Positions 38,852 to 62,410 of a DNA stretch of 62,619 bases are shown here, one piece after another (the first letter of the stretch is position 1; every line of letters begins with the position of its first letter). The stretch lies in contig JAOZSV010000003.1 of the NCBI GenBank assembly GCA_029939505.1, positions 13,692 to 76,310 on the forward strand, given 5' to 3'. The translations under genes and the position numbers were made by a program. The stretch is from Thiotrichaceae bacterium. Its GTDB lineage: Bacteria > Pseudomonadota > Gammaproteobacteria > Beggiatoales > Beggiatoaceae. The notes beneath the pieces are model-generated. The model was given only the letters and a program-made list of their open reading frames with translations. It was not told the origin of the DNA and did no database searches.

Positions 38852-39362
38852 TGATTAATGGTGAATGTGTTTAATGATGAATGATTAACTGATGTTACGC
38901 ACTATGTTTCCAAGATGTTTAAGAAGCGGTGAAACGATATTTAAGAAATCCGATTTTTGAAAAAATCGGATTTCTTAGCGGCGAAACGATATTTAAGAAA
39001 TCCGATTTTTGAAAAAATCCGATTTCTAAGCGGCGAAACGATATTTAAGAAATCCGATTTTTGAAAAAATCCGATTTCTAAGTTTGAATAGAATCGCTTT
39101 GCGTAACATCAGTGATTAATGGTGAATGATGCGAATTAAGAGTTGAAATTGGAGTTCAACGCTTCAGCTTTGAATTTTTGGAGTTCAACTGGTGAAAATT
39201 CGCAAAAAGTGGAGCGATGACAAACAAATCTTAAAAAACAATAATTTACATTCACCATTCACCATTCTTCTGGTTATTTTTGAAAAAATTAATTTCGTCA
39301 TAATGGAAAATCGACAACTAAACCTGACAGGTTTATTAAAACCTGTCAGGTTTGAAGCAACA
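38852..39362. repeat. Intergenic repeats with a MITE
   Basis: 511 bp holding the ACTGATGTTACGCA MITE (38888-39113), GGAGTTCAACGC repeats (~39149-39190), ATTCACCATTCA simple repeats and an AACCTGACAGGTTT palindrome pair (~39322-39355). A 62-codon frame from 39192 consists of repeat sequence and is not credited. Confidence 0.8.
38888..39113. mobile_element. MITE, ACTGATGTTACGCA family, copy B
   Basis: 226 bp. Terminal repeats ACTGATGTTACGCA / TGCGTAACATCAGT are flanked by GATTA on both sides (38883-38887, 39114-39118). The interior is three tandem units of ~51 bp, each GCGGCGAAACGATATTTAAG plus an AAATCCGATTTTTG hairpin. Confidence 0.92.
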
Positions 39363-43690: not shown

Positions 43691-45178
43691 TTAAATCTTT
43701 TGAGGCACAACAGACTCAAAAGCAAGCCCTGTTTGTATCAAGGCATTAGCGTCAGGATTTTGTGATAAATGGGGCATTCCTGTTGGCTGCGCGACCTGTT
43801 GAGGAAGTACAACTATCGGCTGAAGTGCGACAGCTTGTTGAGGTACGATCATCGGCTGAAGTGCGACAGGCTGTTGTTGAGGTACGAGCATTGATGCTAA
43901 TACCTGTTGAGGTACAACGGACTGTTGCTGAGAAACAACCATCGGCTGAGGTACGAGAGCTTGAGGTATAACACTCCCCATCTGTTGAGGAATTGGCTGC
44001 TGAGGTACGCCCATTTCAGGCGCAACTGGCGGCTTTTTACGTCCAAATTTTAAGAAAAACAAAAAGAATATGGCAATGCCGATAAGTATTACACTCAATA
44101 CGGGACGATAGAATAACCATGCAATAGCAATGGTTATAAGAGAAAATACAGCAGCTAGAATAAAAGAGGTAATAGTCGTTGCGATTTCAACAAATCGCCC
44201 TAAAAAAGGAACAACGCTTGCCAGTACTATCAGTACACTAAATACCATAAAAAGACCAAAAAACATCATCAAAAATCCTGTCAAACGAGAACTCCAAGTT
44301 TCAATGACATTGCTCATCGTAGCGCGTTCAAATATTTCTTCGGCGGTCACGGTACCATATTCAAGCAATTCAATAGACTCGCCTACTTGAGTCGTATAAG
44401 CCGCTAAACGGAAACCAACCTGTTTGGCGATAACACTGATAGTCGTGGGCTGGACTATTTGAAATTTTATCCGTAGATCACCAATTTTATGAAATTTAGG
44501 GTTTTCAACCAGGTAGAAATACTCTCCCTTGAAATAGATGTTTTCAAATTGTGGTCCAAATGTGACATTGAGCTTTTCCAACACCTGCCCTCGCCAGCTT
44601 TCCTCTATCTTTAAATCAGAATAAGAGTTTATCTTATCGACAAAACCCTTTGATAGGGTGAACTCACCCAATTTAACCTGTTGGGCAGTAAATGTCTCTC
44701 CGCTAACTGGCATGTCAGCAGGATTTTTATGACCTTCTTCTTCAAAGTGCTTGGAATCAATAAGGTGTTTTGACCATATTTTGGAATAGGTTCGCGTGCT
44801 ATCCTCCAAAAGTCTATCCAGCTTTGACTCTTCAGACTCTTTCCATTGGTACATTTCCACCACACGCCGCAATTTGAGCATAAGGGTTGCATCAACGCCA
44901 ACCTCAAAATCGGTTAAAACTTCGTTTGTCGTCGCTTCACCAGTTAAATGAATGAGTCTGCCATCATTATCTTCTATAACATGATTAGCATTAACTGAAG
45001 TGACGATGCGCCCACCTTCTTCCAAAGCTTGAGCGCGATCAACAGAATGACCTTCATTCAAAAACAACAACGGAAAAGCACCAAAAAACAAGGTGAAGCC
45101 TATTAGGGCAACGGTGAGAGATTCTTTCATTCGATCCCCCCAGGGTTGATTATTTACATTATATGAATTGGGCATCAT
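43691..45178 (-). CDS. TMEM43-like membrane protein with a Q/P/V-rich tail
   Basis: 495 aa. SD GGAG lies 4 bp before two adjacent ATGs (45178, 45175). One helix near residues 20-42 (TVALIGFTLFFGAFPLLFLN) is followed by NEGHSVDRAQALEEG, then a large soluble middle and four closely spaced helices at ~300-385. This is the TMEM43/LUMA layout known from the nuclear envelope of animals and also found in bacteria. The last ~100 residues are a low-complexity tail of VPQQ-, VALQP- and VSQQ-type repeats, unlike the rest. Bacterial function is unknown. Confidence 0.85.
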   Translation of the reverse strand: MMPNSYNVNNQPWGDRMKESLTVALIGFTLFFGAFPLLFLNEGHSVDRAQALEEGGRIVTSVNANHVIEDNDGRLIHLTGEATTNEVLTDFEVGVDATLMLKLRRVVEMYQWKESEESKLDRLLEDSTRTYSKIWSKHLIDSKHFEEEGHKNPADMPVSGETFTAQQVKLGEFTLSKGFVDKINSYSDLKIEESWRGQVLEKLNVTFGPQFENIYFKGEYFYLVENPKFHKIGDLRIKFQIVQPTTISVIAKQVGFRLAAYTTQVGESIELLEYGTVTAEEIFERATMSNVIETWSSRLTGFLMMFFGLFMVFSVLIVLASVVPFLGRFVEIATTITSFILAAVFSLITIAIAWLFYRPVLSVILIGIAIFFLFFLKFGRKKPPVAPEMGVPQQPIPQQMGSVIPQALVPQPMVVSQQQSVVPQQVLASMLVPQQQPVALQPMIVPQQAVALQPIVVLPQQVAQPTGMPHLSQNPDANALIQTGLAFESVVPQKI

Positions 45179-45873
45179 TTATCTCCATATTTGAATTTAA
45201 AACAATGAATGCGAATTAAGAGTTAAAATAGTGTCCATCTGGAAACACTTCCAAAGCGAAAGGTTTGGAATTTTAAAAGCCGTTTCAGGATGGACACTAA
45301 AATAGGAGTCCAACGCTTCAGCTTTGGGCGGACTGACAAAGCTAAAGCGTTTTCGAGATTTGAGTTTTTTGAAAAAAAACTCCATTCTAGGTTCAAGTTT
45401 TTTCGGTAAAAAAACTTGAACCTAGAATCGAGGCTAAAGTTTTTTCTTCAAAAAAATTTTAGCCTCGAATGCTTTCACTCGACTATCAAGTTTTTTAACA
45501 ACCAGTATTCAAAACACAATTCGAGGCTAAAGTTTTTTCTTTAAAAAAACTTTAGCCTCGAAAACAACAAGCACTATAACTATAAGCACTATAACTACAA
45601 GGATTATTTATAAGAAAGGATAATCACTCGGTATTTTTTAAATAATTGATTTATAATCGTTTTTTATCTCTCCTTTCTTATAAATAATCCTTGTAGTTAT
45701 CGTTTAAAAAACTTGATAGTCGAGTTTCAGCCTTGAAATTGATTTCAAGGCTGAGTCGTTACAAAAAACTCAAATCTCGAACTCCATTTTCAAAAAAAAA
45801 TTCAACTCACCATTCGAGGTCTGAGTTTTTCTTCAAAAAACTCAAACCTCGAAACCATTCAGTATATCACACC
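45179..45873. repeat. Dense nested repeat tract
   Basis: 695 bp, no gene. Contains a CTAGGTTCAAG hairpin (45385-45427) inside the remains of another hairpin and two TTCGAGGCTAAAG hairpins (~45430, ~45521). An outer inverted pair, CTCGACTATCAAGTTTTTT (~45478) and AAAAAACTTGATAGTCGAG (~45707), encloses the 110-bp MITE 45591-45700. A CAGCCTTGAAATTGATTTCA palindrome and a CGAGGTCTGAG/CTCAAACCTCG hairpin follow. Confidence 0.85.
45591..45700. mobile_element. 110-bp MITE with 30-bp terminal inverted repeats
   Basis: The left end ATAACTACAAGGATTATTTA continues to AAGAAAGGA at 45620, and the right end 45671-45700 is its reverse complement by inspection. The central 50 bp is AT-rich and non-coding. 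A diverged copy is at ~62303-62415. Confidence 0.85.
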
Positions 45874-48800
45874 CTAATCAATACATTGACTCACAATACT
45901 AACCAACATACGTTTTCTATCCTTAAAAATGACTCGGCTTGCCATAATTTGTACTTCAATGGACTGACCATTGCGATGCTGTTCTTCACGGCGTTTGAAA
46001 AACTTCTCTTCCTCCTGCGTCATCAATATACTATAATATTCACGCACCGCACTATCATGGACTGCTGGCGGTAATAATATTGTAAAAGCCTGTCCTAGTA
46101 ATTCATCCTGACGATATCCATACAATTCAGCAAACGCTTGATTCACTTGTAAAAAACGTCCTCTGTCATCTGTGACACAAATACCCAAGTTAGCTACTTC
46201 AAAGACTGATGCAAGAAAAGTTTCATTTTCACGAAAACTTTGTTCTTGAAAACGATCCTGCAATGATGATTGACTTTTTTTCTGTTCTGTAATATCAATC
46301 GCAAAAACAATGACACCTATTAGATGACCTTGAGCATTCTGATAAGGAATTTTATCAAACTGTAACCAACGTGTAAACTCTTCCTTTGAATTTGACGTTT
46401 CATCTTCTGAAGTCTCTTTCAGAGTACACACTATGCCATAATGGGGACGACCCAACTGAATAACGACCTGACAATCAGTGTACTTTTCAAGCTCTTCTTT
46501 ATGGTTTTTAAAGGTTTTTTCGGCTCTTTGATTATAGCGCAATAAATGATTCTCTTTATCACGATACCAAATCATCGCAGGTACGGTATTGAAAATCATT
46601 TGGTATTCCTGCCATTGCTTTCGTAGCATATCCCACATTCGTTTACGTTCACTGATATCGTGCATCAAACCAAAACTAAATATAATGTTATTCTTGGCAT
46701 CACGCACCGCATCAACTCGCTGCCAAATTGGAAATGGAGAGTTATTCTTGTATAGAACATTTAACTCGCCCTCCCAACTTTGACCATTTGCCAAAGCGGG
46801 CATCATTTCCTCTTCCCAAATTTTTCTGGATTCCATTGGGTAATGATCAAATAAATTCTTTTCTTTAGCTTCTTTGAAAGAAATTCCAAACAGTTTTTCA
46901 TAAGCTCGATTAACATAAATCAATTTTTCTTCTGCACTTCTAATCGCAATAGCTTCTTCGGAAGATTCAATGATAGATTTAAACAAACGTAAATGCCCTT
47001 CTGCTTTTTTACGCTCCGTCACATTAATTCCCACGCAAAAAAAATAATCAAGTTTTCCATTCGCCTTCACGACAGCACTGCTATGCCACTCGACCAGTAA
47101 TAATTGACCGGTTTTAGTTTTAATATGGTATTCTGCTCGTGAAGATTGCATAGATTTAATCAGATTGCCAAATTCAGTAGAAACTAATGGACGCTCTTTT
47201 TCAGGAATAAAAAGCGTCAGAAAGTCAGATTTTTCTACTTGAACATGCGAATATTCCGTCGCTTGCAGCATCATCTGATTTATCATACGAATTTGACCAT
47301 TAGGATTGAGTGCGAAAAAAAATGCAGGAGAGGTTTGAATCAAAGACTGTACAAAATCTCTTTCTTGACGAAGTGCTTCATCATAAGCTTTACGTTCTGT
47401 AATATCGCGCAATGCGGCACACACTAAAGATCGTCGTCCTTGAAACAAGTAAGAATCACCGCTAAACACTTCCACCGGAAAGACGGTACCATCCTTTTTC
47501 TTATGCCAACGCAGGGGAATAGATTGTCGTTTATTGCCATTCCCAAAAGCCCCTCGCGTTTTCACGGGTTCAGCAGAAATATCATCGGTTTTCATGTGCA
47601 ACCATTCATTTTTACTGTACCCATATAAGTCAATAGTCGCTTGATTGACATCAAAAATATGTTGGGTATTACTATCAAACACGACGATTGGATTATAAGC
47701 GACTTCAAATAACTGTCGATACTTTGATTCATTTTCCCACAAAGCGGTTTCAAGTTGATGTCTATCAGAAATATCGCGCACAGCCATCATTAATACTGGC
47801 TTACCTTTAAACAAAAAAGGATTGGTTGTGGTTACTTCCACTGGAAAAACCGTTCCATCCTTTTTTTTATGGTACCGTGTTGATATTGATTTCGTCCCTT
47901 TTCTTATTATATGCTCTGTTTTATTAGGTCGTGCTGACAACATTGTTTTTTGGGACTTTAACAATTGATGGCGGCTGTAACCATATAAATGTGTCGTTGA
48001 TTTATTCACATCCAATATATCCATTGTCTCCGCATCTACCATAAAAATGGCATCCGATTCGACCTCCATCAATCGTTGATATTTCAGTTCTAGTTTGTTT
48101 AACTCATCTTCAAAACGACGCGGTTCTGTTGTATCTATATGCGTTCCTACCATCCGATATGGTTTACCACTTGAGTCTCGAACCATGATGGAACGACTTA
48201 AAAACAACCGATAATTTCCATCCTTATGCTGTAAACGATGGGTATTTTCACATACCGGTGTCAAACCGGCTAAATGATCCTGAATTTCTTTCATTACCCG
48301 CTTATAATCCGCCTTATGAATGCGTTTATGCCATGATTTCACCTGTCGTAACAATTCATGTTCTTCAAATCCTAACATTTTTTCCCAACGCCCTGAAAAA
48401 TACATTTCATTCGTTGATAAATTCCAATCCCATAAGTCGTAATTATTTTCTGGTACACATCCGTTATGCGCGTTTAAATTTTCACGTAAGGCTTGCTCTG
48501 TTTCTTTGAATGGTGTTATATCTGAAAATGATATGATGACTGCGTAGGGAATTGTGACATCATCACGCCATAATGGATGAGTATGAATCCGAATCCAAAT
48601 CACCGAATCATCTGGCTTGACTATGCCCATGACTACATCGGCATAAGATTGCCCCGTTCGTAATGTACAAATCGCTGGATGGCTTTCCGTTGGAAACAGT
48701 GAACCATCTTCATGAATAATCCGCCAATCTGGATCAACTAAAGTCCATCCCATCATTTGATCAGCAGATAAACCTAAAATACGCTCTGCACTTGGATTAC

Positions 48801-49236
48801 ATATTCCAATGGAACCATTTGCATATTGTAAAATGACTCCTTCTTGTAATACGCCAATCATTTCATCAGCCGTCATTGGCTGTTCACGCATTGTTATATC
48901 CATCCCTACGGCATAATAAGCGTATTCAACGGCATTACCTCTGTTAATTTCCCACAAGACGTTACGATAATCACCATCGTAATGGCGAAATTGAGTGGAA
49001 AATGAAACAGAATTAATCCCCTCATCCAATTGACCAAAATAATGTTCAACCAATGCCTGTTCATCTTGATGAACAAATTCTAAAAACCGTTTAGCCAGTA
49101 GTTGAGGTGTAGATAAACCCAGAATATTTTCCCAGGCGTTGTTGACTTCTTGAAACTCGCCTTCTGAATTTAAAATGCCGAACATTGCAGAAGAACGCCA
49201 AAAAAAACGGGAATGATGGGATGTATTAACAGACAT
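45874..49236 (-). CDS. Multi-PAS sensor protein without an output domain
   Basis: 1120 aa from MSVNTSHHSRFFWRSS at 49236, where AAAAGGAAA is a good SD. I count nine PAS domains in series; the last begins FEVANLGICVTDDRGRFLQV. Most have PAC tails of the kind GTHIDTTEP, AVRDISDRH, GLMHDISERK and VFAIDITEQK. No membrane helix, histidine kinase, GGDEF, EAL or receiver domain is present; the protein ends just after the ninth PAS (MLVSIVSQCID). Either output is through a partner or the gene has been cut at the repeat tract that begins directly after its stop. Confidence 0.88.
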   Translation of the reverse strand: MSVNTSHHSRFFWRSSAMFGILNSEGEFQEVNNAWENILGLSTPQLLAKRFLEFVHQDEQALVEHYFGQLDEGINSVSFSTQFRHYDGDYRNVLWEINRGNAVEYAYYAVGMDITMREQPMTADEMIGVLQEGVILQYANGSIGICNPSAERILGLSADQMMGWTLVDPDWRIIHEDGSLFPTESHPAICTLRTGQSYADVVMGIVKPDDSVIWIRIHTHPLWRDDVTIPYAVIISFSDITPFKETEQALRENLNAHNGCVPENNYDLWDWNLSTNEMYFSGRWEKMLGFEEHELLRQVKSWHKRIHKADYKRVMKEIQDHLAGLTPVCENTHRLQHKDGNYRLFLSRSIMVRDSSGKPYRMVGTHIDTTEPRRFEDELNKLELKYQRLMEVESDAIFMVDAETMDILDVNKSTTHLYGYSRHQLLKSQKTMLSARPNKTEHIIRKGTKSISTRYHKKKDGTVFPVEVTTTNPFLFKGKPVLMMAVRDISDRHQLETALWENESKYRQLFEVAYNPIVVFDSNTQHIFDVNQATIDLYGYSKNEWLHMKTDDISAEPVKTRGAFGNGNKRQSIPLRWHKKKDGTVFPVEVFSGDSYLFQGRRSLVCAALRDITERKAYDEALRQERDFVQSLIQTSPAFFFALNPNGQIRMINQMMLQATEYSHVQVEKSDFLTLFIPEKERPLVSTEFGNLIKSMQSSRAEYHIKTKTGQLLLVEWHSSAVVKANGKLDYFFCVGINVTERKKAEGHLRLFKSIIESSEEAIAIRSAEEKLIYVNRAYEKLFGISFKEAKEKNLFDHYPMESRKIWEEEMMPALANGQSWEGELNVLYKNNSPFPIWQRVDAVRDAKNNIIFSFGLMHDISERKRMWDMLRKQWQEYQMIFNTVPAMIWYRDKENHLLRYNQRAEKTFKNHKEELEKYTDCQVVIQLGRPHYGIVCTLKETSEDETSNSKEEFTRWLQFDKIPYQNAQGHLIGVIVFAIDITEQKKSQSSLQDRFQEQSFRENETFLASVFEVANLGICVTDDRGRFLQVNQAFAELYGYRQDELLGQAFTILLPPAVHDSAVREYYSILMTQEEEKFFKRREEQHRNGQSIEVQIMASRVIFKDRKRMLVSIVSQCID

Positions 49237-49780
49237 ATTTTTTCCTTTTGTGTTAATGTTTAAGTACCACTGCATAAATAATCTGGTATTAACTTGATGT
49301 TCTCGCTAATGAGTACAACGGATTAGCGGAATAAACGGATTTTAAAAAACGTTGTATCAGATGAACTTATCCCACTATTCAATAAATGGTGAATAATGAA
49401 TAAAACAGACAGATAAATCGCCTGATTTTTAAATCAAACGAGGCTCAAGAAATCCGATTTTTGAAAAAAAATCGGATTTCTAAAATCAAAAACGAATAGG
49501 GAGAGAGAGTTTAGCAGGCTTGAGCCTGCTTTAGCTTTCAGCCTTGAAATTGATTTCAAGGCTGAGTAGTTACAAAATTTACAAATAATTATATCTATAA
49601 TGTACAATTAATGGTGTTTTAAAAAAACACAAACTCCCTATGAATGAAACTTTAATAATCTCCAAAACCTTTAAGCCAAACCTGACAGGTTTAGTTTTGT
49701 GTTTTATTAAATTTTCATTTTTTAATGTACAATTAATGGTGTTTTTAAAAAATACAAATTCCCTACAACGGAGTAACAAT
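49237..49780. repeat. Intergenic region with a duplicated ppk1 leader
   Basis: It contains GTACAACGGATTAGCGG repeats, a CCGATTTTTGAAAAAAAATC hairpin, a CAGCCTTGAAATTGATTTCA palindrome, and then the ppk1 leader as two 42-bp direct copies (49599-49640, 49724-49765; both start AATGTACAATTAATGG and end CCCTA). The copies flank an 83-bp AACCTGACAGGTTTAG repeat. SD CGGAG precedes the ppk1 ATG. Confidence 0.8.
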
Positions 49781-51913
49781 ATGGCTTCTAATATTCCAAT
49801 CGCAAATAAAACCGAAACCGCCGCTGACTTAAATCACTCTAAAGAAACAATTGATCTAAACCATCCAGAATTATATCTCAATCGTGAATTAAGCCTACTG
49901 GCTTTTCATCGTCGCGTCTCTGCCCAAGTCACTGATCAAACAATACCATTATTAGAGCGATTACGTTTTTTATGTATTGCCAGCACTAACCTTGATGAGT
50001 TTTTTGAATTACGCGTTGCTGGTTTAAAACAAAAAGTAGTAGCAGGTTCAGTGCAGGTTGAAGCTGATAATTTGTCTTCACAAGAAACGCTTCATCGTAT
50101 TAGTATCGCCGCCCATGATTTTGTTGAAGAGCAATATCGCTTACTGAACGAAAATATTTTACCTGCATTGGAACAAAAAGGCATTTGCTTTCTTAAACGT
50201 GAAATGTGGACTAAAGCACAAAGCAAATGGGTGCGGGATTATTTTGATAATGAATTATTGCCTATTTTAAGCCCCATTGGGCTTGATCTTGCGCATCCTT
50301 TCCCACGTATTCTGAACAAGAGTTTGAATTTTATTATTTCCCTCAAGGGCAAAGATGCTTTTGGGCGGGATAGTGGAATGGCTGTTGTACAAGCCCCACG
50401 TTCATTACCCCGTTTTATTCAATTTCCTGATGAATTATCTGAACATCATTACGAATTGACTTTTTTATCTTCTATTATTCATGCTTATGTTGAAGATTTA
50501 TTTCCGGGTATGAAAGTAACAGGGTGTTATCAGTTTCGCGTCACCCGCAATAGCGATTTATTTGTTGATGAGGAAGAAATTGATGATTTGCTACGTGCTT
50601 TAGAAGGCGAATTGCCTGGACGACGCTATGGGGATACTGTGCGTTTAGAAGTCCCCGATAATTGCCCAGATAAAATGATTCTTTTTTTATTGAAGCATTT
50701 TAAATTGACTCAAGAAGATTTATATCAAGTGAATGGACCTGTTAATCTTAATCGACTGTTAGCTTTACCTGATATGGTTGATTGTCCCGATTTGAAATTC
50801 CCTAGTTTTACGCCTGGAATTTCTAGGAATTTAGGGCGCAATTTATTTGCAACGATCCGTGAAGGTGATATTTTACTTCACCATCCTTTTCAAACCTTCA
50901 CAACAGTCATTGACTTTGTTCGTCAGGCGGCGACCGATCCCCATGTGTTAGCGATTAAACAAACTTTATATCGCACAGGACCTGATTCTGTGTTAGTTGA
51001 TGCATTGGTAGAAGCGGCACGCGCTAATAAAGAAGTCACGGTGGTGGTGGAATTGCGAGCACGTTTTGATGAGGAGGCGAATATTCGTTTAGCTAACCGC
51101 CTACAGGAAGCAGGTGCTCATGTTGTTTATGGCGTGGTGGGATACAAAACTCATGCAAAAATGATCATGGTTGTGCGCCGCGAAGATAAGAAACTTCAGC
51201 GTTATGTGCATTTGGGTACAGGTAATTATCATGATCGAACTGCGCGTCTTTATACCGATTATGGTTTATTAACTTGTCGTAAGGATATTGGTGAAGATGT
51301 TCATAAGATATTCATGCAGTTAACCACTCTTGGGCGGGGTACAAAGTTGAAAAAAATGCTGCAAGCCCCGTTTAGTTTGCAGACCGGTTTAATAGAACGT
51401 ATTGAACGTGAGGCGGAGGTCGCTCTAAAAGGTAAACCTGCACATATTATGGTTAAAGTCAATGCCTTAACAGAATTAAAAATAATTCATGCTTTGTATA
51501 AGGCTTCAATGGCTGGTGTTAAAATTGATTTGATTGTTCGGGGAATATGTTGCTTAAAGCCGGGCATTCCAGGGATTTCCGAGAATATTCATGTGCGTTC
51601 TATTGTGGGGCGTTTTCTTGAACATACCCGTTGCTTTTATTTTCTCAATGAAGGACAGTCCGAAGTTTTTTGTGCGAGTGCTGATTGGATGACTCGCAAT
51701 TTACTGAAACGGGTGGAAGCATGTTATCCTATTGAAGAGCCTGCACTTAAAAATCGGGTGATTGAACAGGGCTTGAAATTGTATTTGCAAGATAATACTC
51801 ATGCTTGGGTACTTGATAAGGAGGGTCATTATACCCGTTTGATTCCTAAAGATGATGAACCTGCGATTTCCGCTCAACAAATTTTATTAGAACAGTTAGC
51901 TGAAAAGGCTTGA
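49781..51913 (+). CDS. ppk1: Polyphosphate kinase 1
   Basis: 710 aa from ATG 49781, typical for PPK1; an earlier in-frame ATG at 49640 lies in the duplicated leader and is discounted. Makes polyphosphate from ATP reversibly. Shown by YLNRELSLLAFHRRV, SSTNLDEFFELRVAG-like ASTNLDEFFELRVAGLKQKV, the first catalytic region with VLAIKQTLYRTG and VVELRARFDEE, and the phosphorylated histidine area KTHAKMIMV and VHLGTGNYHDRTARLYTDYG. Large sulfur bacteria store polyphosphate, so it fits the presumed host. No ppx neighbour. Confidence 0.97.
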   Translation: MASNIPIANKTETAADLNHSKETIDLNHPELYLNRELSLLAFHRRVSAQVTDQTIPLLERLRFLCIASTNLDEFFELRVAGLKQKVVAGSVQVEADNLSSQETLHRISIAAHDFVEEQYRLLNENILPALEQKGICFLKREMWTKAQSKWVRDYFDNELLPILSPIGLDLAHPFPRILNKSLNFIISLKGKDAFGRDSGMAVVQAPRSLPRFIQFPDELSEHHYELTFLSSIIHAYVEDLFPGMKVTGCYQFRVTRNSDLFVDEEEIDDLLRALEGELPGRRYGDTVRLEVPDNCPDKMILFLLKHFKLTQEDLYQVNGPVNLNRLLALPDMVDCPDLKFPSFTPGISRNLGRNLFATIREGDILLHHPFQTFTTVIDFVRQAATDPHVLAIKQTLYRTGPDSVLVDALVEAARANKEVTVVVELRARFDEEANIRLANRLQEAGAHVVYGVVGYKTHAKMIMVVRREDKKLQRYVHLGTGNYHDRTARLYTDYGLLTCRKDIGEDVHKIFMQLTTLGRGTKLKKMLQAPFSLQTGLIERIEREAEVALKGKPAHIMVKVNALTELKIIHALYKASMAGVKIDLIVRGICCLKPGIPGISENIHVRSIVGRFLEHTRCFYFLNEGQSEVFCASADWMTRNLLKRVEACYPIEEPALKNRVIEQGLKLYLQDNTHAWVLDKEGHYTRLIPKDDEPAISAQQILLEQLAEKA

Positions 51914-52304
51914 TTAGGAATGCACATTCCTTAGCTTTAATGAGTTTCAACGCTTTAGCTTTGAACTCCAATCCAAAGCTAAAACGTACTCAGGGCAACC
52001 ACAAGGGATTGCCCCTACATCAGCTCTCATCGTTATACATAAGTCAAAAATCGTCAAAGTAGGGTGGGTAGAGTGAAACGAAACCCACCATTTTTGGCGG
52101 TTCGGTGGGTTTCGCTATCGCTCTACCCACCCTACGAAAAAACCATTTAAATCAAATGCTTAAATACTTATGTATAACGATGAGACATCAGCTCAGGGCA
52201 ACCACAAGGGATTGTCCGATGAATATTTTCGTCCGTATTAATAAAAATATTGTTGTAGGGGCAATCCTTTATGGTTGCCCTGAGTAGTTATGCTAAAACA
52301 AAAA
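51914..52304. repeat. Repeat tract between convergent ppk1 and secA
   Basis: 391 bp. CAGGGCAACCACAAGGGATT copies (51983 and ~52195) and the inverse ATGGTTGCCCTGAG (52270) surround a GTAGGGTGGGTAGAGTG / CTCTACCCACCCTAC hairpin; TCATCGTTATACATAAG and its inverse form an inner boundary. No gene seen. Confidence 0.75.
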
Positions 52305-55067
52305 TTACGTCAATTTACCATGACAAAGTTTATACTTCTTCCCAGAACCACAAGGGCAAGGCTCATTACGCCCCACTTTACGTTCCTTTCGCACAAAAGG
52401 CTTTTTCTGTATTTTTGGCTTCGGTTGTTGTTCACTCTCTGCGCTTTCCGCAACTTCATTAGCCAAGCCTTCTACTTTGGCATGTCTAAACTGCATCGCA
52501 GGCATACTTTGTCGCCGTTGTTCTTCCACCGCATCGACATCAGTTTCAGCACGGATTTGCACTTTCGAGATAATACTAATGACTTCATGCTTAATTTTGT
52601 CAAGCATTTGAGAAAACATTTCAAAGGCTTCACGCTTATACTCATGTTTAGGATTTTGATGAGCATAGCTGCGTAGGTGAATACCTTGACGTAAATGATC
52701 CATTGCAGCGAGATGTTCTTTCCAATGGTTATCAAGGACTTGCAACATCACCGCCTTTTCAAAATGGCGTATGACTTTAGTACTCGCCAAGCGTTCTTTT
52801 TCATCATAAGCGGCGACAAGGGCTTCTTCTATTTTTTCACGTAAAGGCTCCTCATGCAAACTCTCATCTTCTTCTAACCATTTCACAATCGGTAAACGTA
52901 AACCATACAGATCTTCAATGGCTTTTTCAAGTCCCTGAGTTTCCCACAATTCTTCCAAACTCTGAGGCGGAATATAGCTATCTATCACGCCCATGAGTAC
53001 CTCGTGACGAATCGTTTTGATAGATTCTTCAACAGAATCAACTTCCATCAATTCGCGGCGTTGTTTATAAATAATCTTACGTTGATCATTGGCGGTATCG
53101 TCATATTCAAGCAGTTGCTTACGAATATCAAAGTTGCGTCCTTCTACCTTGCGCTGTGCATTTTCAATGGCTTTAGTGACCCAAGGATGTTCAATGGCTT
53201 CTCCTTTTTCCATGCCCAATTTCTGCATTAAACCCGCCATCTTATCAGAGGCAAAAATTCGCATCAAGTTGTCTTGTAAAGACAAATAAAAACGACTTGA
53301 ACCCGGATCACCCTGCCGCCCTGAACGACCACGTAATTGATTATCAATGCGTCGTGATTCATGGCGTTCTGTGCCGATGATGTGCAAGCCATTGCTCAAG
53401 ATAACCGCTTCATGACGTTTTTGCCAGTCTTGACGCATTTTTTCAATTGTTGCTTCATCCACTACTTTGTCTTTGTTTTTTCGCAGATTATCAATTTCTG
53501 CTTCGACATTACCCCCTAAGACAATATCAGTACCCCGTCCAGCCATATTGGTCGCAATAGTGACAGTTCCCGGCATTCCCGCGTTTATAATAATCTGCGC
53601 TTCTTGTTTATGGAATCTGGCATTCAACACTTGATGTTGAATTTGTTGTTTTTGCAACTGTTCCGATAATAATTCAGAGTTTTCAATTGAAGTTGTACCA
53701 ACAAGCACCGGTTGCTTACGCGCTTGGCAGTCTTTAATGTCTTCAATAATGGCTTCATATTTTTCCTCTGTGGTGAGATAGACTAAATCACCTCTATCGT
53801 CACGAACCATATCCTTATGGGTGGGAATAACGACCACTTCTAAGCTATAAATTTGTTGAAATTCAAAGGCTTCCGTATCAGCCGTTCCGGTCATCCCAGA
53901 CAATTTATCGTAGATACGAAAGAGGTTCTGGAAAGTAATTGAAGCCAGGGTTTGATTTTCGTTTTGAATCGTCACCTTTTCCTTGGCTTCAACAGCCTGA
54001 TGTAATCCTTCAGACCACCGCCGTCCTGGCATTTGTCGCCCTGTAAATTCATCAACAATAATAATTTGATCGTCTTTGACAATGTAATCGACATCACGCT
54101 GAAATAAAGAATGGGCGCGTAATGCTGCATTGACATGGTGCATCAAGCTAATATTGGAGGCATCATACAGACTCTCACCTTCTTTAAGAATACCTTCTTT
54201 AACGAGAGATTCTTCAATATGCCCATGTCCTTCATCACTCAAGGTCACTTGTTTGTTTTTCTCATCAATATAAAAGTCGCCTGGAACTTCGACTTCTTCA
54301 TCTTTTTCCGTTTCACGTTCTTGAGCTGTTAAACTGGGAATAACAACATTGATGCGCCTGTATAAATCAGAATTGTCATCGGTTGGTCCAGAAATAATGA
54401 GGGGGGTACGCGCTTCATCAATTAAAATTGAATCGACTTCGTCAATAATGGCAAAATGCAAATTTCGCTGGACACGCTCATTGATGCTAAAAGCCATATT
54501 GTCACGCAAATAATCAAAGCCAAATTCATTATTTGTACCATAAGTAATATCAGTAGCATAGGCCGCTTTTTTTGCTTCATGTGACATATCGGCAATGATC
54601 ACGCCTGTCGTCAAGCCAAGAAAATGATAAATGTGGCCCATCCATTCTGCATCACGCCCGGCTAGATAGTCATTAACGGTGATGATATGAACCCCTTTAC
54701 TTGGGAGGGCGTTCAGATAGGCTGCTAGAGTGGCGACTAAGGTTTTACCTTCGCCTGTCCGCATTTCAGTAATTTTGCCTTGGTGGAGTACCATGCCACC
54801 AATCAGTTGTACGTCAAAATGACGCATATTTAATGTGCGCTTTCCTGCTTCACGAACAGTCGCAAAAGCTTCTGGCAGTAAATCGTCTAATGAACTACCT
54901 GCATCTAAGCGTTCACGAAATTCCGCCGTTTTGGCTTTTAATTGTTCATCAGTCAGGGCAGATATAGAGGGTTCAAAACTGTTAATTTGTTTAACAGACT
55001 TATACATCTGTTTAATGAGCCGTTCATTGCGGCTTCCAAAAAATCGAGTAAAAAATTTGCTGATCAT
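52305..55067 (-). CDS. secA: Preprotein translocase ATPase SecA
   Basis: 920 aa, full length. Motor that pushes unfolded preproteins through SecYEG. Walker A is in [20 protein letters not shown], Walker B is [15 protein letters not shown]-like ([20 protein letters not shown]), followed by the preprotein cross-linking domain, [39 protein letters not shown], and the C-terminal zinc site [14 protein letters not shown] after a basic linker. Convergent with ppk1 and alone in its transcription unit. Confidence 0.98.
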
Positions 55068-56009
55068 CTGTATTTTTAATAATTTGTTGTGAGGACGAGG
55101 CGAAAGGTTTTTAACAAAAAATGGTAAGCCTCGTTAGTTAGTTATTATATTGTCATGTTTCGAGGTTTAACGCACGAAAGTTTTTTGATAATTTTTGATA
55201 AAAGGATTCTAATTGTAATTAATTATAAGTGATGTCACGGTTGAGAGTACAACGAATTGACGAAATAAACGAATTTTGTGAAATGTTCAAGATTAAAATC
55301 AGGCGTTTTGTTCACTTAACCACTATTTTCACATTTTTCAAGTACATTCCATCTAAAATTAAACATTAATATTATTTTCAATAATGATTGAATATTTTGA
55401 ACAATACTCATTACAGCATTAATTAAGTATATTCATTAAAAGGAACTCGCAAAATCATTTTTTTAAAGTAACTACTCAGCCGTTAGCCTTGAGATAAATC
55501 TATTCGAGGTTTAAGTTTTTCTTCAAAAAACTTAAACCTCGAATGCTAAAAGCTCAAGCAGGCTAAAGCCAGCTAAACTATTCAGTCTTCTTTTAGTCTG
55601 CTTTAGCAGACTATTCGAGAGTCGATTCTAGGTTCAAGTTTTTTCGGTAAAAAAACTTGAACCTAGAATTTAGTTTTTTGTAAAAAAACTAAAACCTCGA
55701 CTAAAGTTTTTTCTTTAAAAAAACTTTAGCCTCGAATGCTTTCAGCCTTGAAATTTATTTCAAGGCTGAGTAGTTACTTTTTTCAAAGCTAAAGTTTTTG
55801 TCAAATTTTTAGCCTCTAAAGCAATAGCTAAAGCAATTGGCTAAAAACTTTTGAGGGGAAAGTTATTGAAACGGACGTTTTTTAAAGAAAAATTTCGCAT
55901 CGAACATCTTCTAAAAGGATCGTTTGCTCATGTTTCTTGCATATCACTAAAAAGTTTATAACTACGTTTCAGTATAACCTTGAAAATATTCTAAAAGGAT
56001 CGTTTAATC
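55068..56009. repeat. 942-bp repeat-rich region between divergent secA and the cyclase gene
   Basis: No protein gene found. The secA promoter should lie near 55070-55300. Repeats: GTACAACGAATTGACG at ~55249, a TTCGAGGTTTAAG hairpin (~55503-55543), and a CTAGGTTCAAG hairpin (55626-55668) inserted into a TTCGAGAGTCGA ... CTAAAACCTCGAC hairpin. Also a TTTTTTCTTTAAAAAAAC hairpin and CAGCCTTGAAATTTATTTCA. A duplicated SD segment is at 55909-55925 and 55989-56005. Confidence 0.75.
55909..56005 (+). promoter_or_regulatory. Duplicated ribosome-binding leader with a six-codon leader ORF
   Basis: TTCTAAAAGGATCGTTT occurs at 55909-55925 and 55989-56005, each followed by NNTCATG. The first ATG (55930) opens only MFLAYH and then stops at 55950; the second starts the cyclase. 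The two are 80 bp apart. It could be a simple duplication or a short leader ORF affecting cyclase translation. Confidence 0.55.
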
Positions 56010-58256
56010 ATGTCTAAATATTATGTGGTTATTAAACGTCATGCGTTACGACTATTGATCAGTTTAACTATTTTGTTATTTTTTATTTTACATGTGACGA
56101 AATTCATTGAATGGGATTTTATTAACGCCTTAGAAAATAATGCTTATGATGTTAGGGTGAGACTGACCATGCCTAATATTGTGGATTCCCGTATTGTTAT
56201 TGTCGATATTGATGAACAAAGTTTGAATGAAATAGGTCGTTGGCCTTGGAATCGCAAAGTGATTGCAAATCTGATTGAGCAATTATTTAATACCTATCAT
56301 ATTGATGTTCTTGGTATGGATGTCGTATTTGCCGAACCTGATAACAGTTCAGGTTTAAAACAATTGCGGGAATTGGCTCAAGGGCCTCTTAAAGAGGCGA
56401 AGAGGTTTTCAGAAATATTAAAAACACTTGAAACTGAACTTGATTATGATGCTTTATTAGCCCAAAGTATGCGAAACCGTCGAATCGTGTTGGGCTACGC
56501 TTTTCCTATTAGTCAAAATGGAGCACAAGTTGAAGCCGGTGAATTGCCACCCCCTGTTTTTAGCCGCGAAGAGGTACAAACTTATCAGTTGAATTATATC
56601 ACTGCTAATGGTTTTGCAGGTAATTTACCCGAATTTCAGGCGAATGCGATGACAGCGGGACATTTTGTGTTTACGCCTGATCCTGATGGTATTGTACGAC
56701 GTGTACCTATGCTTTATGGTTATAAAGGGCAATTGTATGAATCACTTTCATTAGCAGTTGCCCGCGCCGTCTTTGGAAATCCTAAAATCAAGTTAGGCGT
56801 TGTGACTTCTGAAAGCGGTTATCATAGCCTAGAATTTCTAAAGATGGATCATCGGAATATTCCTGTTGCTGGAAATATTCAAACTTTAATACCCTTTCAA
56901 GGGAGTCAGGGTAGTTTTCCTTATGTTTCAGCAAGTGAAGTCTTAAATAGACGTGTGAAGAACCCTGAAATACTTAAAGATAAGATCGTATTACTTGGCA
57001 CCAGCGCGGCGGGTTTGTGGGATTTGCGTGCGACTCCTGTTGAGGAAGTTTATCCGGGTGTTGAAATTCATGCCAGTCTGATTTCAGGTTTATTAGATAA
57101 TAGAATAATGGAAAATCCTAACTATATGATTGGTATGGAAGTTTCCCTTTTAATCTTTATTGGATTAGTCATGATTATTGTTTTACCGCTACTCAGTCCA
57201 TTGTTAGCGACTGTTGGTACGATAATCGTTTTTGGATTTGTCTTTGGGCTTAATATTAATATCTGGACTCAAATGCAACTCGTTTTGCCTTTAGCAACAA
57301 CGTTTTTACTCATGTTCACCTTGTTTCTTTTTAATATGTCTTATGGATATTTCATTGAAACCAGTAATAAACGCCATTTAACAGGATTATTTGGACAATA
57401 TGTGCCACCAGAATTGGTTGATGAAATGAGTAATAATCTGGGTAGAGAGTTTTCTATGGAGGGCGAAAGTCGGGAAATGACCGTCTTATTTTCAGATATA
57501 CGTGACTTTACTAGCATTTCTGAAAATTTAGCTTTAGCACCTAAAGAACTGTCTCAGTTAATGAATGAATATCTTACTCCCATGACTCATGCCATTCATC
57601 ATCATCGGGGGACTATTGACAAATATATAGGTGATGCTATCATGGCATTTTGGAATGCCCCTTTAAATGATCCTCATCATGCGCGTCATGCTATAGATAC
57701 GGCTATGGAAATGCTTGAGCGTTTAAAAGAAATACAGTTGAAATTTAAGGCAAAAGGTTGGCCTGAAATCAATATAGGTATTGGCTTAAATACTGGCATT
57801 ATGAATGTTGGTAACATGGGTTCGCAATTTCGTATAGCTTATACAGTATTAGGCGATGCCGTGAATTTAGCCTCACGCTTAGAAGGAACCACTAAGCAAT
57901 ATGGTGTACAAATTATCGTCAGTGAAATGACTAAAGCCGCTGTGCCAGAATATCTTTATCGCAAGTTGGATTTTGTGAGAGTTAAGGGAAAAGTTCAGCC
58001 CGTTGCCATTTTTGAACCCATTGGATTGCATGGCCAGATCGCGCTAAATGTGATGGCGGAAATCGCTCATTATGAGCAAGCCCTTGAACATTATCAACAA
58101 CAACATTGGCCTCTGGCGAGAAAAAAATTTGCCCAATTATGTGAAGAATATCCTGAACGTTTCTTATATTCACTTTATCTCAAAAGGATTGAAAACTTTA
58201 TAAAAAATCCACCAGGCGATAATTGGGATGGTATATATACTTTTACGACTAAATGA
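56010..58256 (+). CDS. CHASE2-sensor adenylate/guanylate cyclase
   Basis: 748 aa. The first helix (~13-31, LRLLISLTILLFFILHVTKF) is followed by an extracytoplasmic CHASE2 domain (~35-350; DSRIVIVDIDEQSLNEIGRW, ALSLA-type core, VLLGTSAAGLWDLRATPV). Three helices (~370-450) come next, then a class III cyclase domain (~485-660) with metal-binding Asp residues in VLFSDIRDFTSISE and GDAIMAFWNAP, and IAYTVLGDAVNLASRLEG. It should make cAMP (or cGMP) in response to an outside signal. A ~70-residue helical tail follows. SD AAAGGAT fits the start. Confidence 0.94.
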   Translation: MSKYYVVIKRHALRLLISLTILLFFILHVTKFIEWDFINALENNAYDVRVRLTMPNIVDSRIVIVDIDEQSLNEIGRWPWNRKVIANLIEQLFNTYHIDVLGMDVVFAEPDNSSGLKQLRELAQGPLKEAKRFSEILKTLETELDYDALLAQSMRNRRIVLGYAFPISQNGAQVEAGELPPPVFSREEVQTYQLNYITANGFAGNLPEFQANAMTAGHFVFTPDPDGIVRRVPMLYGYKGQLYESLSLAVARAVFGNPKIKLGVVTSESGYHSLEFLKMDHRNIPVAGNIQTLIPFQGSQGSFPYVSASEVLNRRVKNPEILKDKIVLLGTSAAGLWDLRATPVEEVYPGVEIHASLISGLLDNRIMENPNYMIGMEVSLLIFIGLVMIIVLPLLSPLLATVGTIIVFGFVFGLNINIWTQMQLVLPLATTFLLMFTLFLFNMSYGYFIETSNKRHLTGLFGQYVPPELVDEMSNNLGREFSMEGESREMTVLFSDIRDFTSISENLALAPKELSQLMNEYLTPMTHAIHHHRGTIDKYIGDAIMAFWNAPLNDPHHARHAIDTAMEMLERLKEIQLKFKAKGWPEINIGIGLNTGIMNVGNMGSQFRIAYTVLGDAVNLASRLEGTTKQYGVQIIVSEMTKAAVPEYLYRKLDFVRVKGKVQPVAIFEPIGLHGQIALNVMAEIAHYEQALEHYQQQHWPLARKKFAQLCEEYPERFLYSLYLKRIENFIKNPPGDNWDGIYTFTTK

Positions 58257-58871
58257 TGAGAGGAATGTGGGACTATTCGATGTTCAAGTTTTCAAGTCAG
58301 CGTCTTAGCATTGAAATAAGTGGAGTACAACGCTTTAGCTTTGTATGGAGTACAACGCTTTAGCTTTGTGGAGTACAACGCTTTAGCTTTGTGTGGAGTA
58401 GAACGCTTTAGGAATGAGGCTTTAATAACAGCCGAAACTTTAAAGCCAAACCTGACAGGTTTAGTTTTATGAACCTATCCCACTATTCAAAAATGTGGAA
58501 CCATGACTAAAAATCGTTTGGTTTTTAACCAAAAAATGAGGGTTAAGAAATCCGATTTTTTCCAAAAATCGGATTTCTAAGTTCAAAAATGAATAGTGGG
58601 ATAGGTTCATGGTAACTACTCAGCCTTGAAATCAATTTCAAGGCTAACCGCTGAGTAGTTACATTCGCATTATTATTTTGCAAAAAGTTCTCATTTGAGT
58701 TAATTACTGATGTGACGCAGGGTGCTTCTAAATTCCACCTAAATTCCACCGATTTCATCGGTGGCTATTCACATTTCACCCCGTTGGGGTTAGTTTCAAC
58801 CCTGAAGGGGTTAAACATGAATAGCCACCGATGAAATCGGTGGAACTTGGAAGCATCTTGCGTCACATCAG
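58257..58871. repeat. Repeat tract with two complete MITE-like elements
   Basis: Three tandem GGAGTACAACGCTTTAGC units (58321-58400), an AACCTGACAGGTTTAG unit similar to that at 49641, the GAACCTATCCCACTATTC element (58469-58610), a CAGCCTTGAAATCAATTTCA palindrome and the ACTGATGTGACGCA MITE (58706-58872). No gene. Confidence 0.82.
58469..58610. mobile_element. MITE-like element with ATGAACCTATCCCACTATTC ends
   Basis: 142 bp. ATGAACCTATCCCACTATTC at the left and its inverse GAATAGTGGGATAGGTTCAT at the right. The interior has a GGTTAAGAAATCCGATTTTT hairpin. Single ends of the family appear at ~49369, ~62015 and ~62549. Confidence 0.8.
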
Positions 58872-58872
58872 T
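58706..58872. mobile_element. MITE, ACTGATGTTACGCA family, copy C
   Basis: 167 bp, ends ACTGATGTGACGCA / TGCGTCACATCAGT (a matched T/G to A/C change relative to other copies), flanked by TAATT at 58701-58705 and 58873-58877. The interior differs from the other copies: TTCCACCGATTTCATCGG arms around CACCCCGTTGGGG and AACCCTGAAGGGGTT. It lies exactly at the stop codon of the downstream minus-strand gene. Confidence 0.88.
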
Positions 58873-59561
58873 TAATTATCATAAACAGGATCTTTTTTTG
58901 GTGCAATGACACATCCGCATCCATCATCATCAAAAAATTCGTCATCAATGGAGTCACAGTTTAACTCAAATTCCTCGTCTTCACATTCTGCGGACAACTC
59001 ACTGACATATTCTTTGAAACTCAGGAGATTACCGGATTCTCTCATTTTTTGATAGACTAATTCGAGGTCTTTCATTTGGGTTAAATCTGTCGCTCTGGCG
59101 TATAAATCGTAAGCAAGAGCAGCATCCATTCGGGGTATCACAGTATGTATTTCAAATAGACTTTTGCTATTTTTCTCATTTGGTTTAATTTGTACAATAT
59201 ACAGTAAACCTTCTTCCCAGTCTAAACTGAGCATGAAAGGCCCTAAAAAATCACTGTTTTTGGGTAACATTTCTGTTGTTTCCCAGTCGTCTTTTTCAAT
59301 CTTTGTCCATTTGAAACCGACTAATGGTAATCCAGTTTTATTAGGAGACCATGCTGTTTCTTTACCTTGTTGAATCCAGCTTTTTGGAATCTCAATGGTA
59401 ATGCTCGCCTCTTTGATTTCTAGGGACTTATATTTTGATACTGGGGGCAACGGTGACAGCGAATCGGATAATGGTTCAGATAATGGTTTAGCGTTGATTA
59501 CTTGGGAGAGTAATATCAAGCTAATCATCATGAATTTTTTTGGTGAAAAAAATATTTTCAT
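58872..59561 (-). CDS. Secreted acidic protein, unknown function
   Basis: 229 aa with a signal peptide (KKFMMISLILLSQVINAKP) and a Ser/Pro-rich linker (LSEPLSDSLSPLPPVSK). The body includes IEIPKSWIQQGKETAWSPNK and GLLYIVQIKPNEKN. The C terminus is very acidic and cysteine-bearing (CEDEEFELNCDSIDDEFF, then DDDGCGCV). I do not recognise the family; a metal-binding exported protein is possible. The stop is made partly by the first base of the MITE that follows, though the target duplication suggests the original stop was the same. SD is GGAG-like in the AT-rich leader. Confidence 0.65.
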   Translation of the reverse strand: MKIFFSPKKFMMISLILLSQVINAKPLSEPLSDSLSPLPPVSKYKSLEIKEASITIEIPKSWIQQGKETAWSPNKTGLPLVGFKWTKIEKDDWETTEMLPKNSDFLGPFMLSLDWEEGLLYIVQIKPNEKNSKSLFEIHTVIPRMDAALAYDLYARATDLTQMKDLELVYQKMRESGNLLSFKEYVSELSAECEDEEFELNCDSIDDEFFDDDGCGCVIAPKKDPVYDN

Positions 59562-59771
59562 TGTATTTTCATATATTTGGAGATAAAAAAAGGTGAAGGT
59601 TCAGATTTTAACCTTCACGCGGTTATAAACTCATTTTTAGTGACGCAAGAAATAAACCAAGTTTCTTGAAGAAACTTGGTTTCTAACTAATTGAGAATGT
59701 AGGGTGGGTAGCTGAAAATGGTGGGTTTCCACTTCGTTCCTACCCCACCCTACATTACTTTGAAATATGGC
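59562..59771. terminator. Hairpins between sat and the secreted-protein gene
   Basis: GTGAAGGTT/AACCTTCAC stem (~59592-59618), an AACCAAGTTTCTTGAAGAAA hairpin (~59658-59682, near-copy of 17165-17192) and a GTAGGGTGGGTAG/CTACCCCACCCTAC inverted repeat (59699-59755) directly after the sat stop. These are plausible terminators for sat, moving right to left. Confidence 0.5.
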
Positions 59772-60965
59772 TTATTTCGCCGCTTGGCTTTGATAATAGC
59801 CCATCAAAATCTTTGCCACTTCTGGGCGTGAAAATTCTGGTGGCAAATCTTTGCCCTCAGATAACATCTTACGCACCTTTGTACCAGAAAGGATGACAAA
59901 ATCCTCTTTGCTATGATCTGGCACATCGCGCATCATAACCACCTTGTTTAATTTCTTGGAATAGGCGGTGTGATCAGCGCGGAAAATTTCAATCTCAAGC
60001 GCACCCGCAGGCACTTTCTCATCAAAAATCGTTTGGGCATCAAAAGCACCATAGTAGTCACCTACCCCAGCATGATCGCGCCCAACGATAAGATGGGTAC
60101 ATCCTGTATTTTGGCGGAATGTGGCGTGTAATATGGCTTCACGGGGTCCAGCATAGAGCATGTCGAAACCGTAGCCAGCAACCATAACGGTGTTGGGTGG
60201 GAAATACACATCTACCATCTTACGAATGGCAGCGTCGCGCACGGGCGCTGGAATATCACCCGGTTTCAATTTACCCAGCAACATGTGAACGAGAATACCA
60301 TCCGTTTTGAGCCTATCATGTGCCATTCTGCACAATTCTTCATGGGCGCGGTGCATAGGGTTGCGCGTTTGAAAGGCCACGACTTTATTCCAGCCACGTT
60401 CAGCAATTTCATTGCGAATTTCAACGGCTGTACGGAAGGTGTCTGGAAAATCTTCTTGGAAGTAGCTGAAATTTAAAACTTGAATCGGACCTGAGATGAC
60501 ATATTTACCGAGATTAAGAAAATTTGTCGCGCCTGGATGTCCTGCATCTAAGGTGGTGAAAATATTCTCAGTGATGCCATTGAGTTGCTCTGTACTGATT
60601 TCTTCAATGGCTTCAATGTCTTGAATTGCTATCACAGGATTGCCTTCCACATTGGGATCACGCAGTGCGATACGTTTGGCGTTTTTAATCGCCGAAATAT
60701 CGTCAGTGCGATTGACAATGGGGACAGGCCAAAATAAACCACTGGTTGTCTGCAATTTTTCTGCAACGCTTAACATATCGGCGATATTCATGTAACCTGT
60801 TAATGGGTTAAAATAACCCGCGCCGAGCATCACCGCATTGGTTGCCGCTGCCGAATTGAGTAGCAAAGAGGGTAAACTTTCGGCTTCTTTTTTAAGCTCA
60901 TGATGTTTTTCGACATCATAAACAAATAATGGATTTAATTTTTCAGAACCATGTGGTTTTATCAT
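59772..60965 (-). CDS. sat: ATP sulfurylase (sulfate adenylyltransferase), dissimilatory type
   Basis: 397 aa. Single-chain Sat without an APS-kinase extension. Motifs: NPLTGYMNIADMLSV, VVAFQTRNPMHRAHEELCRM with the HxxH pair, GKLKPGDIPAPVRDAAIRKM, HLIVGRDHAGVGDYYG, and the C-terminal ILSGTKVRKMLSEGKDLPPE. In sulfur oxidisers this enzyme makes ATP and sulfate from APS and pyrophosphate, the last step of sulfite oxidation with AprAB, which is not in the window. SD AGGAA precedes the start. It is divergent from ccmB. Confidence 0.95.
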   Translation of the reverse strand: MIKPHGSEKLNPLFVYDVEKHHELKKEAESLPSLLLNSAAATNAVMLGAGYFNPLTGYMNIADMLSVAEKLQTTSGLFWPVPIVNRTDDISAIKNAKRIALRDPNVEGNPVIAIQDIEAIEEISTEQLNGITENIFTTLDAGHPGATNFLNLGKYVISGPIQVLNFSYFQEDFPDTFRTAVEIRNEIAERGWNKVVAFQTRNPMHRAHEELCRMAHDRLKTDGILVHMLLGKLKPGDIPAPVRDAAIRKMVDVYFPPNTVMVAGYGFDMLYAGPREAILHATFRQNTGCTHLIVGRDHAGVGDYYGAFDAQTIFDEKVPAGALEIEIFRADHTAYSKKLNKVVMMRDVPDHSKEDFVILSGTKVRKMLSEGKDLPPEFSRPEVAKILMGYYQSQAAK

Positions 60966-61307
60966 TATTTATTCCTATCGTTTTTCAGATAAATCTTTTT
61001 ACTAAAAAGAAAGCAAGTTTTTTTAAGAAACAGGCCGTTTCTTAGAATTTATTTTTCTGAACGTCTATAAATCAATTTTAGGCTAATTTTCCAACAAACT
61101 TTAGCCTCGAAGGGTTATCAAAGTGACAAATTTTTCATTATACTGAAATGTATTTCAAAATCGTGAAAATTTATCAAAATTATCATTTATGATAATTAAA
61201 TGTTTATTTTTAAAACAAATAATAAATAACGAATTAAAATATAACAATATTATTAATAATTATTTCCACTTGTCAAGTATTTTTGTTATTTTGAGGCTTT
61301 AAAAGCA
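60966..61307. promoter_or_regulatory. Divergent sat/ccmB control region with palindromes
   Basis: 342 bp, AT-rich, mostly free of the window's usual repeats apart from a fragment (TTTAGCCTCGAAGGG) near 61083-61102. Two palindromes stand out: TGAAATGTATTTCA (61143-61156) and AATTATCATTTATGATAATT (61178-61197). Either could be an operator shared by the divergent genes. I assign no regulator. Confidence 0.4.
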
Positions 61308-61985: not shown

Positions 61986-62046
61986 ATGGTTGTTGTTAAT
62001 GGTGAATTATGAATTATGAACCCATCACACTATTATTCAATTAATA

Positions 62047-62286
62047 ACTGATGTTACGCACTATGTTTCCAAGAGGTTTAAGAAATCTTTGAAAAAAAAT
62101 CGAATCTAGGCTAAAGTTTTTTTGAAGAAAAAACTTTAGCCTAGATTTCTAAGCGGCGAAACGAGGTTTAAGAAATCTTTGAAAAAAAATCGGATTTCTA
62201 AGCTCGAGACGAGGTTTAAGAAATCCGATTTTTGAAAAGAAATCCGATTTCTAAGCTCGAATAGAATAGCTTTGCGTAACATCCGT
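62047..62286. mobile_element. MITE, ACTGATGTTACGCA family, copy D, with a nested hairpin
   Basis: 240 bp, ends ACTGATGTTACGCA / TGCGTAACATCCGT, flanked by TAATA (62042-62046 and 62287-62291). Three interior units are visible; the first is split by a 43-bp CTAGGCTAAAG hairpin (62104-62146), i.e. a small palindrome inserted in a MITE. Confidence 0.9.
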
Positions 62287-62410
62287 TAATAATGACAAGT
62301 AATAACTACAAGGATTGTTTATAATAAAGGATGTTTTATAAAAAAACATTATAAATCAAATAGTTAATAACATAATACAGAATGATTATCCTTTTTTATA
62401 AATAATCCTT

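Follow-up and report, generated by a model that had tools for sequence, protein, structure and literature searches.

An inserted 247-bp miniature inverted-repeat element and its palindromic passenger in a Thiotrichaceae genome

Layout of the locus

The window analysed here is a whole stretch of 62,619 bp from a Thiotrichaceae draft assembly that totals 5.58 Mb and is divided into 497 contigs. Between a TMEM43-domain gene (43691-45178) and a PAS-domain gene (45874-49275), both on the minus strand, lies intergenic DNA with several inverted repeats. The outermost pair consists of 21-bp arms, CTCGACTATCAAG... at 45478-45498 and ...CTTGATAGTCGAG at 45704-45724, which are the left (plus strand, CTCGACTATCAAGTTTTTTAA) and right (minus strand, TTAAAAAACTTGATAGTCGAG) terminal inverted repeats of a 247-bp element, 45478-45724, that we call T1. 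The sequence TTTCA stands immediately outside both arms, at 45473-45477 and at 45725-45729, and the outer arms, already paired in the initial annotation, do belong together. The element contains no ORF of at least 80 aa.

Within T1, the left spacer carries a 43-nt hairpin, TTCGAGGCTAAAG...CTTTAGCCTCGAA, at 45520-45562, which reads TTCGAGGCTAAAGTTTTTT-CTTTA-AAAAAACTTTAGCCTCGAA and is the CTAAAG hairpin that had been noticed alongside the inner repeat. It is followed by spacer DNA of iterated AAGCACTATAACTA-like units (45563-45590), recognised from the sequence and from the alignment of copies, and then by a palindrome of 110 bp, module S, at 45591-45700. The arms of S are perfect over 30 bp, as first described, with 45591-45620 the exact reverse complement of 45671-45700, and when extended to 33 nt they are still 97% complementary. 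To the right of the element, a palindromic repeat TCAGCCTTGAAAT..ATTTCAAGGCTGA (45727-45754) had its left edge struck by the T1 insertion, as alignments with its paralogues reveal. Folded as a single DNA strand, the feature stretch reaches -65.9 kcal/mol against a mean of -16.1 for shuffled sequences (z -15.4), an energy attained by none of 200 shuffles; a search of 44500-62619 against Rfam at gathering thresholds returned no match.

T1 as the transposing unit

If T1 inserted as a unit, sites lacking it should read straight through a single TTTCA, and a query made by joining the flanks of the T1 insertion in this way found such sites. One lies in the window itself, on the plus strand at 55622-55777, with 78% identity over 156 columns and, in the block that spans the junction, 39 identical bases out of 41; the TTTCA ends at 55744 and the junction falls at 55744/55745. 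Another is in the host genome (L232), with 96% identity over 75 bases. Both are paralogous repeats rather than the orthologous locus. Two genomes of the same genus offer no usable comparison at the locus itself: the flanks are on separate contigs and next to different neighbours in G002, and the contig of G001 that matches did not yield the insertion region. A different, S-free copy of T1 corresponds to an unbroken site in Thiomargarita sp. RS_2_10 (L184).

The second line of evidence is the target duplication. Using the consensus end CTCGAYNATCAAGTT, and counting convergent pairs 90-700 bp apart in the host genome and its relatives, we found an exact 5-bp duplication at 56 of 85 distinct pairs, whereas 200 shuffles averaged 4.0 and never exceeded 10. 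The loci had been picked because they contain T1 or S motifs, or in some cases a transposase, hydrogenase or dsrA gene, independently of any duplication. Excluded from the counts were pairs of 90 bases or fewer, pairs of at least 700 bases (450 in one count) and pairs within 40 bases (20 in that count) of the end of a locus, together with places whose 15+15 flanking bases repeat those of another place. The host genome contributes 24 of 42 pairs and the other genomes 32 of 43; within the host genome, duplications accompany 13 of the 24 pairs in which both ends have S and 10 of the 16 that lack it. The duplicated block follows the pattern TNNNA in 53 of the 56 cases, and the three exceptions, GAAAA, CTCAA and TTTAT, are duplicated in full, which favours a 5-bp duplication and disfavours one of 3 bp between fixed A and T ends. 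The 29 pairs without an exact duplication could be explained by divergence, chimeras or wrong pairing.

From the duplications and the uninterrupted sites together it follows that the 247-bp unit inserted with a 5-bp duplication at a TNNNA target. The outer element has the features by which a MITE is known: it is short and non-coding, it has terminal inverted repeats, many of its copies are flanked by duplications, and empty, if paralogous, sites exist.

Distribution of T1 and S

The genome search for the ends that the initial annotation had proposed gave numbers well above chance, with 83 matches to the outer end at up to 3 mismatches and 274 to the inner end at up to 2 mismatches in the host genome, against none in either case for the reversed-pattern control. 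The 110-bp S query has 36 host-genome matches, both orientations counted. Beyond the host, 23 of the 42 genomes examined from this family contain the T1 end, and the 110-bp S sequence matches 18 of 57 genomes (E <=0.001), the host itself being included in both counts. Across genomes of named species, the exact 21-base T1 end occurs in 21 stretches: 19 from Thiomargarita, Halobeggiatoa, Parabeggiatoa or Thioploca, one from a Desulfamplus MAG and one from Sarmatiella. Neither of the last two has a second end in convergent orientation when up to 2 mismatches are allowed, and both are probably chance matches or decayed ends; the Sarmatiella end lies, by eye, near transposase-like ORFs.

Module S in its several frames

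The half-sites of S are TAACTACAAGGATTRTWTATAAG. In T1 most of them sit 10-60 bp in from the ends (99 bp on the left side in the window; up to 243 bp), inverted and often repeated. They occur mostly 12-61 bp inside the ends of a second type of element, T2, with GAACCYATCCCACTA ends, and S fills the middle of elements of a third type, T3, with ACTGATGTTACGCA ends, from other genera. When the nearest ends within 110 bp were assigned to 61 distinct copies of S, they were of T1 in 32 (on at least one side), of T2 in 4 and of T3 in 4; the 21 copies with none of these suggest that S could move independently.

The initial annotation had rightly recognised MITE-like mobile DNA at this place and had taken the inner 110-bp palindrome for the MITE; the mobile unit is instead the 247-bp outer element. 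Among the 61 distinct copies of S, no duplication of at least 4 bases rose above shuffles (offsets -14 to +6, lengths 2-10), so that S taken alone does not show the target duplication of a MITE and is not supported as the transposing unit; for the outer ends a test of this type detects the 5-bp duplication strongly. This weak or absent duplication may reflect old insertions, or a true edge of S outside those tried. A 2-base direct repeat 12 bases outside the half-sites was seen in 15 of the 61 copies against a shuffle mean of 6.3, an excess that tops all 500 shuffles and is one of 189 tests. The two arms of a single S copy are somewhat more alike (0.857) than arms of different copies (0.792; shuffle maximum 0.819, 67 copies), a likeness of which subfamily structure could be the source. 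At one locus (L226, 970-1660) an S-bearing unit is present in tandem copies with a spacing of 192 bp, and at another (L085, 1711-2303) about three partial tandem copies can be made out by eye.

Order of events

How S came to lie within T1 is a separate matter. The initial annotation's nested arrangement depended on the outer arms occurring without the inner piece, and they do: 40 of the 85 T1 pairs are free of S, and 26 of these 40 have exact duplications, implying that S is dispensable for the movement of T1. The uninterrupted outer element that had been looked for is thus present in the family at large, but absent from the subfamily to which the window's copy belongs, where S lies within 260 bp of all 64 arm hits (redundancy kept) and no S-free, pre-insertion form was found among them. 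Insertion of S into this subfamily is consequently something we infer rather than observe, and a nested insertion of S into T1 is possible.

The 43-nt hairpin in the left spacer is carried by the window copy and by the copy on contig C234, and is absent from this position in copies on C151, C303, C366, C101 and C263; this patchy occurrence among aligned copies marks it as a separate arrival. A copy on C23 has a sister hairpin at the centre of S. These hairpins of about 43 nt form a family with the frame TTCGAG-N6-GTTTT..AAAAC-N6'-CTCGAA, with members in the window at 1680, 5028, 5237, 14156, 20370, 27576, 30700, 30743, 33532, 35315, 45520, 45813 and 55503 and at many other loci of the host genome. 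Among 133 hairpins found by the conserved frame alone, in a selected part of the host-genome DNA, the variable cores, of which there are 19 different ones, are perfectly complementary in 119, against a mean of 17.4 and a maximum of 31 when the partners are shuffled; the two arms change together.

A second copy of S and the T2 and T3 elements

A diverged copy of S, which the initial annotation had taken as a sign of mobility, is indeed present on the minus strand at 62302-62410, in the opposite orientation and 82% identical over the aligned part. It confirms that S is dispersed, but it sits in a frame of another kind: a T2 element (62018-62560) that also contains T4 motif matches and is itself broken by a T3 MITE (62047-62286), which is bordered left and right by TTAATAA. 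The copy thus shows reshuffling between elements, not simple self-mobility. T2 elements at two other loci (L044 and L048) are without the T3 insertion, and nesting does therefore occur in the host genome, but the proven case is that of T3 in T2, not of S in T1.

T3 has its own target duplication, a 7-bp block TNNNNNA, at 16 of 26 pairs, where shuffles average 1.7 and reach at most 6. S-bearing T3 elements have exact flanking repeats at L267 and L275 and none at L025 and L266. In the window, MITEs with ACTGATGTTACGCA ends lie at 16645-16795, 38888-39113 and 58706-58872 in addition to the nested one. For T2, no clear target duplication was found in 12 pairs; a T2 element of 138 bp with GAACCTATCCCACTA ends is also present in the window at 58471-58608.

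Search for a parental enzyme

The initial annotation had also called for a parental IS, and here the search, carried out in draft assemblies for the transposase families PF01609 and PF01526, was negative. PF01609 gave 41 hits in 7 genomes, and none of the 30 inspected lies between convergent T1 ends; T1-like matches occur at four of the 30 loci (L141, L144, L146, L155), with no convergent pair, and a single S half-site at two (L150, L159). The Tn3 transposase, PF01526, was found in none of 10 genomes. Between long candidate pairs of T1 ends, from the host genome, G019 and G034, lie eight ORFs that match no transposase family: two are histidine kinases, and the others are a VWA protein, a radical SAM protein, an aminotransferase, a leucyl-tRNA synthetase (in G034) and two proteins without clear family. 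Most of these long T1 pairs are therefore chance or unrelated ends. A transposase-like ORF near T1 elements (L118) was considered as parent and set aside, as by eye it has ends of its own.

Two T1-ended elements at different loci, of 1260 bp (L062, 917-2176) and 1366 bp (L286, 264-1629), contain no transposase. They encode an identical 254-aa protein of the GATase_7 type, glutamine-amidotransferase-like, and share 1101 of 1124 aligned columns; one end is common to both and the far ends differ, while the flanking 5-mers match at 4 of 5 positions in both. The pair is likely to be a gene cassette moved by T1 ends.

Interpretation

Taken as a whole, the structure is very probably a single insertion of T1, a MITE family so far undescribed, that carries S as a passenger. 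Its flanks show that the gene-less unit of 247 bp with 21-bp CTCGACTATCAAGTTTTTTAA termini duplicated TTTCA on insertion, and it was most likely moved in trans by a DDE-type transposase that cuts TNNNA targets with a 5-bp stagger. S is then a resident passenger near the ends of the window's T1 subfamily and moves because T1 moves, as is shown for the unit as a whole. The subfamily probably gained S at an earlier time, either through its insertion or through an exchange with another element, because S is shared with T2 and T3, which have other ends. The 43-nt hairpin is a separate arrival in some copies, as their alignment shows.

The nested model of the initial annotation takes S for a MITE in its own right that entered an older outer one. 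In its favour are the variety of frames that hold S, its occurrence apart from T1 ends in other genera (L028, L029, L268, L271) and the existence of S-free T1 pairs. It can also draw on the real nesting of T3 in T2, given the T2 copies without T3, and the 2-base excess outside the half-sites could be the trace of a short duplication. We nevertheless hold it to be rather unlikely: the 61 copies of S are without duplications of at least 4 bases, the window's subfamily has no S-free version among its 64 arm hits, and S usually stands near both ends, inverted and often as tandem half copies, where independent insertions would sit at random. In another reading S has a functional role and is not foreign: it would be a set of subterminal repeats, the terminal arms being cut and the S half-sites bound by one and the same transposase or by a host factor; inverted, subterminal and often repeated half-sites (with S-2-S and S-26-S spacing) are what one would expect in transposase-binding arrays. 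S-free T1 elements also duplicate their targets, though, so that S is not needed for transposition, and the sharing of S with T2 and T3, whose ends differ and, for T3, whose duplication length differs too, makes such a role improbable. About equally doubtful is a further idea, that S is a mobile palindrome with little or no duplication that prefers transposon ends and passes between MITE families, and which, with the 43-nt hairpins, would belong to a self-complementary population spreading and corrected as hairpins rather than by cut-and-paste.

The very stable fold and the position between the PAS-domain and TMEM43-domain genes might suggest something else again, namely a regulatory or terminator-like RNA hairpin, or a REP-type repeat, kept under selection and dispersed incidentally, and published genomes of marine Beggiatoaceae are rich in intergenic repeats (PMC4679880). 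Exact target duplications and uninterrupted sites show transposition, however, and with no match in Rfam this explanation has very little probability.

T1 is a clean family with duplications and uninterrupted sites, by which insertions can be placed in temporal order. If it is true that three end types, with at least two duplication lengths, carry one palindrome, then elements in these genomes swap internal parts, and how a palindrome can travel without leaving a clear target duplication becomes a directly testable question.

Comparison with known systems

Among the known classes of small elements, the Tn3-derived miniature elements (TIMEs) make a 5-bp duplication in AT-rich targets, like T1, and have terminal inverted repeats of about 38 bp that start with GGGG. 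T1 differs in its repeats of about 21 bp, which start with CTCGA, and a Tn3 origin was rejected, no Tn3 transposase being present in the 10 genomes. REP and BIME sequences are dispersed short palindromes, as are S and the 43-nt hairpins, whereas T1 is set apart from them by its terminal inverted repeats and target duplications. PATEs derived from IS200/IS605 have the end hairpins of an HUH transposase and make no target duplication, and it is conceivable, by analogy, that S is an element of this sort, given that it shows no clear duplication.

Large sulfur bacteria are reported to carry many mobile and repeated elements (PMC4853749), and two of these invite comparison. The hupL MITE of Candidatus Thiomargarita nelsonii Bud S10, to which Flood et al. 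(2016, PMC4853749) assign an inverted repeat of 19 bp and direct repeats of 10 bp, resembles T1 in its size of about 200 bp, its host family, its spread throughout the genome and the lack of a known parental IS. We recovered this type at one locus (L216), with 19-bp ends and, by eye, a 10-bp repeat; a matching interrupted hydrogenase in the genome G018 has TCAATGCCATTAAGTTAAG ends and is without T1 or S motif. T1 is not the hupL MITE, as ends and duplication length differ. The MITE in the dsrA intron of Thiomargarita nelsonii, which has TATAG direct repeats (PMC4853749), is likewise a palindromic MITE-like repeat in Beggiatoaceae, and identity with T1 or S was rejected, as neither motif occurs at up to 2 mismatches in the interrupted dsrA of G018 or of the host genome. 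In the host genome an insert of some 0.7 kb divides dsrA (L220, L224; contig C264), with sequence that by eye resembles the interrupted dsrA of G018, and a second dsrA match, partial as well, lies on C207; a group I intron is published for the dsrA of Thiomargarita nelsonii.

The cassette pair may be likened to mobile insertion cassettes and to exchange of ends. As in MIC231 and mic-qnrD (PMC3913671), a gene lies between the ends and no transposase does; the T1 cassettes differ in that no mobilising IS is known for T1, the flanks match at 4 of 5 positions, and one end is not the same. Searches of a limited literature set for motif strings gave nothing relevant, with a single unrelated match in a paper on cattle, and the T1 family and the palindrome common to three end types appear to be undescribed within the literature searched. 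As a kind, MITEs are well known and the mobility of T1 is ordinary; what is unusual is the shared passenger, S.
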